Part shown: in pieces, positions 3,293-42,911 of the stretch
How the letters are laid out: each line of letters opens with the position of its first letter
Numbering within the stretch: the stretch's first letter is position 1
Notes under the pieces: model-generated
Databases searched by the model: none
What the model was told of the DNA's origin: nothing
The model's input: only the letters and a program-made list of their open reading frames with translations
Translations under genes and position numbers: made by a program
Source: Leisingera sp. S132
GTDB lineage: Bacteria; Pseudomonadota; Alphaproteobacteria; Rhodobacterales; Rhodobacteraceae
Reading direction: 5' to 3'
NCBI RefSeq assembly: GCF_025144465.1
Contig: NZ_CP083553.1
Coordinates: 2,602,001 to 2,666,000 of the forward strand
Length of the DNA stretch: 64,000 nucleotides

Positions 3293-5554
3293 TCAGCAGC
3301 CGAGCCGGCCGACTTCCGTCTTCAATTCCTGCGCTCCGCTGTTCAGTTCCTCGGTCGCAGCGGCGATGGAATCCGACGCGATGACAGCTTCTTCGGATGC
3401 ATCCACAATGCTCTGGATGGCCTCGGAAACGTCCCGTGCCGCTGTCTGCTGCTCGTTTGCTGCCACTGAGATCTGAGCGATGGAATCGGTGGTATCCGAG
3501 ATCCCCGTGAGGATCTTTGTGAAGGCCGCGCCAGCCTCTCTCGAGACCTCGCTGCCTTGGGTGACGCGTTTCACCGTTTCATTGATCAGCTTGCTGATTT
3601 CCTTGGCAGATTGCGACGACCGCTCCGCCAGCTTGCGCACCTCGTCAGCCACCACAGAGAAGCCGAGGCCGTGTTCGCCTGCCCGCGCAGCCTCAATCGC
3701 GGCGTTGAAGGCCAGCAGGTTGGTCTGTCCGGCAATCTCGCTGATCGTCTTGACGATTTCGCTGATCTCCTCGGAAGAGGCGTTGATCAGGTCCATGGCT
3801 TCGATCGACCGTTCAATCGCCTTTGCCCCCAGGTCGGCCTCTTCCTTGGTTTTCTGGGCGATCTCGTCGGAATGATTGCTGTTTTGAGCAATCGAGTCGA
3901 TGGAGGCACTCAGCTCCTCGACGGAGGCGCTGATCTCCTCGGTGGTGCAGCCCAGGGTCTGGGCGCCGCCGGCAACCGTGTGGGCCTGTTCCGAGATCTT
4001 CTTGGACTGCTCAGCAAACTGGGTTGCAATCCGGGACACTTCCTGTGCCACCTGCTTTTCCGCGGTGATGTTGGTGGCAAATTTCACCACCTTGAACGGT
4101 TTGCCATCCGCATTGAACACCGGGTTGTAGGAGGCGTTGATCCAGACCTCCTTGCCGCCCTTGCCAAAGCGTTTGTATTCGCCGGCCGAGAACTCGCCAG
4201 AAGCCAGATCGGCCCAGAACTTCCGGTATTCAGGCGAACTTGTGTACTCCGGGTCGCAGAACATCCGGTGATGCTGGCCGCGGATCTCGTCAAGCGAATA
4301 TCCGACGGTTGCCAGGAAGTTCTGGTTGGCGGTCAGAATTGTGCCGTCCAGTTCAAACTCGATCATGGCCTGGGCCCGGCTGATTGCTGCCATCTTACCG
4401 TCCTGCTCAGCCGTCCGCTGTTTCTCTTCGGTGATGTTACTGGCGAATTTCACCACCTTGAAGGTCTTGCCGCCTGCGTCCAAAATCGGGTTGTAGGAGG
4501 CGTTGATCCAAACTTCCGCACCGCCCTTGCCGAAGCGTTTGAATTCGCCTGCCGCATATTCTCCTGCGGCCAGATCGGCCCAGAACTTGCTGTACTCCGG
4601 AGAACCCGCATAGTCCGGATCGCAGAACATCCGGTGATGCTGACCAACGATTTCATCGAGCGCATACCCCACAGTCGCCAGGAAATTCCCGTTGGCGTTG
4701 GTGATTTTACCGTCCGGAGTGAATTCGATGATGGCCTGCGCCCGGTCCAGAGCGGCCAGAACGCCGGCGTTCATCCGGGCTTCGGTCACATCGTCCCATT
4801 CCAGCATATTGCCGACATATTCGCCGTTTTGATCGAAGATACCGCCTACATTCAGCGCAAACTTGAAATCCCCAATGGTAATGTCGGTCTTGTATGGCAG
4901 ATTGGCAGGGTCCGACAGCAGCTTGCGCTGGTGGGCCGGGTTCTTGTGGAACTGGTCGATGCAGGTGCCGATGATATGGGCCGGATCGAAGTTCGGCCAG
5001 ACTTGTGCAAAAGCTTCTGCACTGCGGCTCAACAGCTCTCGGGTCGCGGCATTGACATCGGTGACGATAAAGTCCCGATCAACGGTCATCATCGCGGCAG
5101 AGGCGTTCTCATATCCCGTGGTCTTGCGCAGGTTCACCTGTTCCAGTTGTTTCTGCTTGGTGACATCGGTGGCAAACTTGACCACCTTGCAGGGTTTGCC
5201 GCTCGCATCGAACACTGGATTGTAGGAGGCGTTGATCCAAACCTCAGCGCCGTTTTTGCCGAGGCGCTTGTATTCGCCGGCCGAAAACTCGCCCATCGCG
5301 AGCTGCAGCCAGAAGTCCCGGTACTCATCAGACGCCGCATAGGCCGGATCGCAGAACATACGATGGTGCTTGCCTTGGATCTCCCCCAGCGTGTAACCGA
5401 CCGTAGCGAGGAAGTTCTCGTTCGCCGTGATGATTGTGCCATCCAGCTCAAACTCAATGACAGCCTGGACACGGTTTATTGCGTCCACGACCCCCTGAAG
5501 GTCGTTGCTGGCCTGACCTGTATCCGGCGCTGCTGCCTTTTCGTTCGCACCCAT
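3293..5554 (-). CDS. Soluble multi-PAS methyl-accepting chemotaxis protein
   Basis: 753-aa receptor without a predicted transmembrane segment or HAMP domain, so probably cytoplasmic. It has four PAS-type modules. Numbers 1, 3 and 4 (about 28-140, 270-385, 390-505) are close copies sharing [28 protein letters not shown]-type strings and KVVKFA. Number 2 (about 150-265) is divergent and carries [14 protein letters not shown], common in PAS-MCPs. The C-terminal MCP signalling domain (about 520-750) contains the hairpin tip [20 protein letters not shown]. The ligand is unknown; related PAS receptors bind haem, FAD or small organics. It heads the operon with cheR and cheD. Confidence 0.92.
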
Positions 5555-41604: not shown

Positions 41605-42006
41605 ATGCCGCAAACCATCACCAAGGGCGTCAAGGCGCTGCTCGCGGAGGCAAACAGCCTTGTCGAAACCATGAGCGTCGAGGACGCCAAGCAGAAAGTT
41701 CTGGACGAAAATTACGTTTTCATCGACCTGCGCGACATCCGCGAACTGCAGCGCAGCGGCATGATCCCCGGCGCGTTTTCCTGCCCGCGCGGCATGCTGG
41801 AATTCTGGATCGACCCGGACAGCCCCTACCACAAGCCGGTGTTCAACCAGGACAAGACTTATGTGTTCTACTGCGCCAGCGCCTGGCGCTCGGCCCTGAG
41901 CGCCAGGGCGGCGATGGAGATGGGGCTGAAACCGGTGGTCCATCTGGAGGGCGGCTTCACCGAATGGGCCAAGCAGGGCGGCCCGGTGGTGCCGCGCGAG
42001 GGCTGA
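41605..42006 (+). CDS. Rhodanese-like domain protein
   Basis: 133-aa single-domain sulfurtransferase. The active-site cysteine lies in VFYCASAWRSALSA, with FIDLRDIRELQRSGMIPGA as the N-terminal rhodanese signature and GGFTEWAKQGGPV at the end. GGAAAGGAG gives a strong ribosome site. Roles include persulfide transfer or thiosulfate handling. It is followed by the repeat/SOS-box region. Confidence 0.9.
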   Translation: MPQTITKGVKALLAEANSLVETMSVEDAKQKVLDENYVFIDLRDIRELQRSGMIPGAFSCPRGMLEFWIDPDSPYHKPVFNQDKTYVFYCASAWRSALSARAAMEMGLKPVVHLEGGFTEWAKQGGPVVPREG

Positions 42007-42046
42007 GGCCCTCCGCGCGGCACGGGCTCAAGGCGCCGCACAGGCC

Positions 42047-42126
42047 TCTTGGGCCAGTTGGGAGCCTTTTGGGCCAGTTGGGAACCTTTTGGGCCAGTTG
42101 GGAACCTTTTGGGCCAGTTGAGAACA
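42047..42126 (+). repeat. Four tandem 20-bp repeats ahead of the SOS box
   Basis: Four units of TTTTGGGCCAGTTGGGAACC (42047-42066, 42067-42086, 42087-42106, 42107-42126) with small changes in the first (TCTT, GGAGCC) and last (GTTGAGAACA). Units 2-4 each contain GAAC at the same phase (42082, 42102, 42122). The last GAAC is the first half of the downstream LexA-type box. The 20-bp period is about two helical turns. Confidence 0.92.
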
Positions 42127-42136
42127 AAGAGAGAAC
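42122..42136 (+). promoter_or_regulatory. Alphaproteobacterial LexA (SOS) box
   Basis: GAAC-AAAGAGA-GAAC, the reverse complement of GTTC-N7-GTTC, which is the known LexA operator of Rhodobacter and rhizobia. It lies 16 bp before the ATG of the ImuA-like gene, so LexA would block its transcription until DNA damage. Confidence 0.8.
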
Positions 42137-42152
42137 ATGATAATGTGGCAGC

Positions 42153-42911
42153 ATGCCGACTCACCTGCTTTGCCGCCGCAGCCACAAGCCCCGCCCAACG
42201 CTGCCCCTGACAGAGGGGATCGCGCTGGACCTGGCCCGTGTGCATGAGGCCTGCGGCCCCGCCCGGCACAGTTTTGCGCTGTGGCTGGCAGCTGCAGCCC
42301 AGGGGCCTGTGCTGTGGCTGTCCCAGCCCCAGGCCGGCAGGCCGCTGAACCCGGCACAGGCCGCGAGGCCGCTGAATCCGGACGGGATCGCGGAATATGC
42401 CAGCCCCTCGCGGTTCCTGTTCGTGCAAACCGCCCGGGCAGAGGATCTGCTCTGGGCGATGGAGGAAGCCCTGCGCGGCGGCGGCGCGGCGCTGGTGGTG
42501 GCAGAGCTGGCAGAGCCCCCCGCCATGACCCCGGTGCGGCGGCTGCATCTGGCGGCAGAGGCTGGCGGCACCTTTGGTCCGGCGCCGGCCGGCCTGCTGC
42601 TGACCCCGGGCCAGGGCGGCGCCCAGGGCATCGAAAGCCGCTGGCACCTGGCCCCCGCCCACGGCCTGCCGCCCCCCTCCAGCAGCCTGCCCGGCTGCGG
42701 GGCGGCAAGCCGCGAGTGCTGGACCTTGCAGCGCCTGCGCGCCCGCACCCTGCCGCCCCGCAGCTGGCACATCACCCGGGCCCGCGCAGGCGGCCCGCTG
42801 CAGGCCGCTCCGCTGCCGCCCGGCGCGGCCTGCCAGCAGACCGCACGCCCTGCGGCTTCCCGGGTTCTCCCGCAACCGCAGTCACCGCTGGCTGCGCCAG
42901 CGCTGCCCTAG
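42153..42911 (+). CDS. ImuA-like SOS protein (RecA-related), orphan
   Basis: 252-aa alanine/leucine-rich protein resembling the alphaproteobacterial ImuA group: ALDLARVHEACGPARHSFAL, RFLFVQTARAEDLLWAMEEA, VVAELAEPPAMTPVRRLHL and GLLLTPGQGGAQGIESRWHL. ImuA is the RecA-like partner of ImuB and DnaE2 in mutagenic repair. Neither imuB nor dnaE2 is next to it here. The C-terminal 60 residues are proline-rich and look extended or degenerate. The LexA box in front supports SOS control. Family membership is judged from pattern only. Confidence 0.65.
   Translation: MPTHLLCRRSHKPRPTLPLTEGIALDLARVHEACGPARHSFALWLAAAAQGPVLWLSQPQAGRPLNPAQAARPLNPDGIAEYASPSRFLFVQTARAEDLLWAMEEALRGGGAALVVAELAEPPAMTPVRRLHLAAEAGGTFGPAPAGLLLTPGQGGAQGIESRWHLAPAHGLPPPSSSLPGCGAASRECWTLQRLRARTLPPRSWHITRARAGGPLQAAPLPPGAACQQTARPAASRVLPQPQSPLAAPALP

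Follow-up and report, generated by a model that had tools for sequence, protein, structure and literature searches.

A tandem array beside the LexA box of an imuA-like gene

The window, by which we mean the whole 64,000-nucleotide stretch of Leisingera sp. S132 DNA that was analysed, carries four short head-to-tail repeats between a rhodanese-domain gene and an imuA-like gene, the last repeat running into a LexA box and a putative promoter (Table 1). The rhodanese-domain gene is outside the mechanism considered below.

Table 1 Features of the array locus and of the related genes elsewhere in the genome. Positions are those of the window unless prefixed C1.
Feature	Position	Strand	Sequence or evidence
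Rhodanese-domain gene, upstream neighbour	41605..42006	+	PF00581, E 1.7e-18; ends 40 bp 5′ of the array
Tandem array, four 20-bp head-to-tail units	42047..42126	+	Sequence, TRF
Array unit 1	42047-42066		TCTTGGGCCAGTTGGGAGCC
Array unit 2	42067-42086		TTTTGGGCCAGTTGGGAACC
Array unit 3	42087-42106		TTTTGGGCCAGTTGGGAACC
Array unit 4	42107-42126		TTTTGGGCCAGTTGAGAACA
-35-like hexamer TTGAGA, in last unit	42118..42123	+	Conserved position across relatives
LexA box (GAAC-N7-GAAC)	42122..42136	+	GAACAAAGAGAGAAC; conservation, PSSM 24.6 bits
-10-like hexamer TAATGT	42141..42146	+	Conserved position across relatives
ImuA-like gene, 252 aa, predicted RecA-like fold	42153..42911	+	NF033429, AlphaFold, Foldseek
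DnaE2, 978 aa	C1:169230-172115 (L054)		GAACAAAACGGGAAT (one mismatch) directly before the gene
ImuB-like Y-family gene	C1:199932		LexA box GAACAAAATAAGAAC at 199759
Separate OB protein, 160 aa	C1:2377362-2377841 (L055:2863-3342)		GAACAAATATAGAAC upstream, reverse orientation

The product of the downstream gene matches the ImuA profile NF033429 at E 2.6e-7 with 30.7 bits, under the 150-bit cut-off, and the same profile is matched at E ≤ 0.001 by 27 of 27 relatives in alignment A2, which comprises 27 of the sequences at hand rather than all of them. AlphaFold models the protein with a pLDDT of 78.8 and a pTM of 0.75, and the 50 Foldseek matches listed for this model are RecA (probability 1.00, best E 2.6e-7, TMq ~0.5). 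Because the only lysine of the protein is residue 12, it has no Walker A lysine. On these models we describe the protein as ImuA-like with a predicted RecA fold, and do not assign it to the NCBIfam NF033429 equivalog. Within the gene, a 27-bp tandem duplication (window 42330-42381) yields an extra PLNPAQAAR-like stretch, which is present in three of the 17 aligned genus sequences, namely this one and those of its two closest relatives. Alignment A1 leaves out L022, whose coordinates run past a stop and whose frame is open.

The repeats themselves are real. TRF calls positions 42045-42125 with period 20, 4.1 copies, 95% matches and a score of 141, against a maximum of 72 among 20 dinucleotide shuffles of the window, and the four units are the sole sites within three mismatches of the unit in the 4.69-Mb genome. 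As the genome holds no further copy at this threshold, a mobile or dispersed repeat was rejected. Partial unit matches of 15 bp occur in 14 of 41 genomes; outside the array's own genome they are isolated and lie scattered. The strongest tandem repeat in the window is a different one, a 366-bp tandem duplication at 4063-4745 (1.9 copies, 77% matches). Terminators and RNA structure were sought in the array and none was found (folding z-score +0.96).

GAAC stands at 42082, 42102, 42122 and 42133, and unit 1 reads GAGC instead. This pattern, with its degenerate first unit and a last unit that supplies the first half of a genuine LexA box, is as described in an earlier note on this DNA, which had also placed the GAACs on the same helical face. 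The latter holds only approximately: a 20-bp step is 1.9 turns, and at 10.5 bp per turn each unit shifts the GAACs by about 34 degrees, which amounts to 103 degrees over three units. Read from the sequence, the register of the array is CC...GAA, and every internal GAAC takes its C from the opening base of the following unit.

Conservation of the LexA box and candidate promoter

Scored with a LexA PSSM built from the boxes of 79 relatives, the box before the imuA-like gene tops the window by more than 13 bits (24.6 versus 11.3 for the next best site). GAAC-N7-GAAC precedes the imuA-like orthologue in 18 of the 18 genus genomes in which that gene is intact. The genus set comprises 21 genomes, and the named loci nearest to this one are from Leisingera; in the other three genomes, the imuA copy is broken and its box reads GAGC (G003), lies in fragments at contig ends (G010), or an orthologue of this type is absent (G005). 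Among 80 wider loci, drawn from named records that are partly of the same species, 79 have a perfect box, and in 70 of these 79 the match starts 30 to 32 bp past the start of the box. Judged by its conservation, the box is old and fixed in place before the start codon. The genome encodes LexA (C1:1789000; TIGR00498, 170.2 bits, over the cut-off, E 7.6e-50), with GAAC-N7-GAAC at 1788953, just upstream of lexA. LexA would be expected to bind the box before the imuA-like gene.

TTGA stands before the box in 77 of the 79 box-bearing relatives and TAnnnT after it, spaced by 17 bp, in 66 of 79. The corresponding hexamers here are also 17 bp apart, so the operator would lie between the -35 and -10 elements of the promoter. 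The -10 is weak (3/6), and a generic sigma-70 scan did not report a promoter for the imuA-like gene; the assignment rests on conserved position across relatives, not on that scan. In the window the start codon follows the -10 by 6 nt, and the imuA-like mRNA is therefore probably leaderless.

The array as a probable lineage-private duplication

The closest relative, G016, whose ImuA is 94% identical, has one unit only (CCTCTTGGACCAATTGAGAAC). Aligned with it, the locus matches at 146 of 154 bases and has a single gap of exactly 60 bp, which suggests that three units were added here by a private tandem duplication. That repeat number differs between relatives, one side of the earlier note's proposal, is thus borne out for this pair of sister species, with four units here and one in G016 (one genome per species compared). 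The array is absent from the other genus orthologues read and from the 80 wider loci. The upstream three units carry TTGG, in place of the TTGA of the last unit and of 77 of 79 relatives, and one of the three has also lost GAAC; copies that serve no need would be expected to change in this way, although four units make a small sample.

We consider it likely from this comparison that the array arose recently, in this lineage alone, by tandem duplication at the upstream edge of the imuA promoter, with the number of units rising from one to four. The duplicated segment would take in the -35 hexamer together with the first half-site of the LexA box, and the working operator-promoter would include the last unit only, with LexA sitting on GAAC-N7-GAAC between -35 and -10 and keeping transcription off until DNA damage. 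The three extra units would have been pushed upstream, with no second half-site and no -10, to drift there without effect. The recurring GAAC would be a side effect of the position at which the duplication was cut, each GAA taking its C from the CC that opens the next unit. In this sense the array is ordinary: a private duplication before a real SOS operator.

The earlier note had suggested that the repeats could be LexA half-sites arrayed so as to tune SOS repression. On such a reading, dimers at the real box would touch the phased upstream GAACs cooperatively. Three GAACs do recur at 20-bp steps, the last of them in a real, conserved box, but the alphaproteobacterial site spaces its half-sites by 11 bp rather than 20. 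Registers within the array score -5.8 to -21.8 bits against 24.6 for the box, and the GAACs at 42082 and 42102 reach -13.9 bits when read as the first half-site and -7.4 when read as the second. Over the 100 bp that precede the box, the 79 relatives together show 23 GAACs where 24.2 would be expected, and no relative read, among the genus orthologues and the 80 loci, has the repeats. The phase drift, the missing GAAC of unit 1 and the TTGG of the extra copies tell against it too. As the GAAC repetition would follow from the duplication, the registers score poorly and relatives have no GAAC excess, tuning by LexA half-sites is unlikely; we rejected this reading on PSSM, conservation and GAAC density, and regard it as highly improbable.

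A second alternative is that the array is a slippage-prone tract, its copy number varying between cells or strains, shifting upstream elements and altering imuA regulation. The four-to-one difference between sister species is in keeping with this, as is the identity of units 2 and 3, which looks like the outcome of recent expansion and would equally fit recent selection or gene conversion. Against it, the -35, box and -10 are unchanged by the number of units, leaving no obvious effect, and no recognised site lies within the upstream units. Slippage could in principle affect regulation, and we judge this improbable here. The repeats might also act through another upstream element, either a different regulator's site or T4 tracts in each 20-bp step that favour curvature or UP-element contact. 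TTTT does stand at 42067, 42087 and 42107, about two turns apart, with no T4 there in the closest relative, but the units are mostly G+C, are conserved in no relative read and gave no sign of transcript structure or a terminator; we see only a very slim chance for this reading. Private duplication remains the account that we prefer.

A probable dispersed SOS mutasome

Beside the imuA-like gene there is neither an imuB nor a dnaE2. Genes for both, together with a gene for a separate OB protein, lie with imuA on one contig, at distances of 30 kb to more than 2 Mb. DnaE2 matches NF004225 with 1203.3 bits, over the 939 cut-off, but the match stops at profile position 938 of 1047, and a Pfam scan of the 978-aa protein found no OB domain. 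The 160-aa protein matches DnaE2 positions 942-1039 as well as PF01336 (OB domain, E 3.6e-12). Its gene lies 2.2 Mb from the OB-less DnaE2, and a LexA-type box stands before each. The imuA-like gene would thus encode the ImuA-like, RecA-fold subunit of an SOS-induced error-prone polymerase that is dispersed over separate LexA-box loci and whose DnaE2 is split into an OB-less polymerase and a separate OB protein; the ImuA-like, ImuB-like, OB-less DnaE2 and OB proteins would assemble into one complex.

The split form is common in the genus, where 11 of 13 genomes checked have a split DnaE2, each with an OB piece. The two others, G003 and G005, carry a full imuA-imuB-dnaE2 cassette instead. In G003, the old dispersed imuA (C1:3916076-3916631; L023, L026, L059) and the OB gene (C1:3770249-3770514; L058) are both broken, with the OB box intact and the imuA box decayed to GAGC; in G005 neither a dispersed-type imuA nor an OB gene was seen. 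The parallel decay of the old imuA and the OB gene alongside a full cassette supports a shared function for the two. The G005 cassette also carries, where its imuA ends and ahead of imuB, two overlapping LexA boxes with one GAAC in common (GAACTTATAAAGAACAAATCGGGAAC; L056 6725 and 6736, minus strand, G005:C2 near 2632225), giving three half-sites in steps of 11 bp.

We extended the comparison to 120 Rhodobacteraceae genomes, one per genus, of which 107 have a DnaE2 over the cut-off: 49 have truncated DnaE2 only, 57 full-length only and one (G064) both, leaving 13 with neither. One genome (G044) was placed with the full-length class. A single 217,585-base contig of this genome bears both the OB match, from base 9 onward, and DnaE2, which continues up to the contig's end; this points to one full-length gene cut by the ends of the record. 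Three genomes with no DnaE2 over the cut-off stand outside the comparison of the 49 with the 57, namely G113 and G117, with OB matches in fragmented assemblies, and G080, with a separate OB gene. A separate OB gene is present in 47 of the 49 truncated-only genomes and in none of the 57 full-length-only genomes (Fisher p 4e-28, not corrected for kinship); the two truncated-only genomes in which it is missing (G073 and G092) are draft assemblies. In 43 of the 50 full-length rows with an imuA match, imuA and DnaE2 are no more than 8 kb apart. The truncated rows show this in 1 of 50 if G044 is counted among them, the one being G044 by its coordinates, and in 0 of 49 with G044 placed as above.

SOS control appears to extend to both pieces. 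A perfect LexA box was found upstream of 29 of 30 OB loci read, as against 1 of 90 control windows, and a box with at most one mismatch in 10 of 13 upstream regions of truncated DnaE2. In a tree of 28 DnaE2 proteins a branch with 100/100 support sets the 13 truncated ones apart from the rest, so the association between truncation and a separate OB gene depends on one main split rather than on many independent ones. Five genera (G058, G061, G066, G068 and G111; L187-L191) combine a full-length DnaE2 with a dispersed-type ImuA elsewhere, and they fail to group as a single clade in the tree of DnaE2.

Collectively, these data make it likely that in one large Rhodobacteraceae lineage the SOS mutasome has been dismantled into imuA, imuB, an OB-less DnaE2 and a separate, SOS-controlled OB protein, located far from one another and each with a LexA-type box of its own. 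The OB protein would act in trans as a detachable DNA-binding subunit of the error-prone polymerase, and the array would be an accident before one of the four genes. The dispersed mutasome behind the array is a variant worth testing: with the OB domain in a LexA-box gene of its own, its role in translesion synthesis could be probed, in marine bacteria that are harmless, by deleting that small gene with the polymerase untouched.

Comparison with known systems

The array illustrates how a regulatory-looking pattern of phased half-sites can come from a duplication step of a single kind, and how the matter is settled by looking at relatives. Among titles and the beginnings of abstracts in the open-licence PMC literature on LexA and tandem repeats, no comparable array was reported. 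Variable-number tandem repeats are known from bacterial promoters. The array resembles them in its short head-to-tail units beside a promoter and in a copy number that varies between relatives, the difference lying here between species compared by one genome each.

The alphaproteobacterial LexA operator is described, in the available part of its source, as a direct repeat of the GTTC/GAAC-N7 type (PMC3323433). The box before the imuA-like gene agrees with that account in its exact motif, in overlapping the putative promoter of a DNA-damage gene and in the presence of an encoded LexA. It departs from it in that a 20-bp unit including the first half-site appears to have been duplicated upstream, leaving the extra half-sites partnerless.

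For the mutasome, the available portions of the sources describe several DnaE2 proteins without an OB domain (PMC3919608), split imuA'-imuB / dnaE2 cassettes and a separate ImuB-C (PMC6511836, PMC3765255), and a classification of DnaE2 systems (PMC12926913); in those portions, and among titles and the beginnings of abstracts in the open-licence PMC literature, no description of a separate OB gene for DnaE2 was found. The ImuA1 and ImuA2 groups, as far as that classification is accessible, have no Walker A lysine (PMC12926913), and the same is true of the ImuA-like protein here. The system shares with the ImuA-ImuB-DnaE2 mutasome, as presented in the available parts of PMC6511836, PMC12926913 and PMC3919608, an ImuA-like protein of predicted RecA fold, ImuB, DnaE2 and LexA-type boxes. 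It differs from the cassette described there in that its genes are scattered, its DnaE2 is OB-less and a separate LexA-box gene would supply the OB domain.
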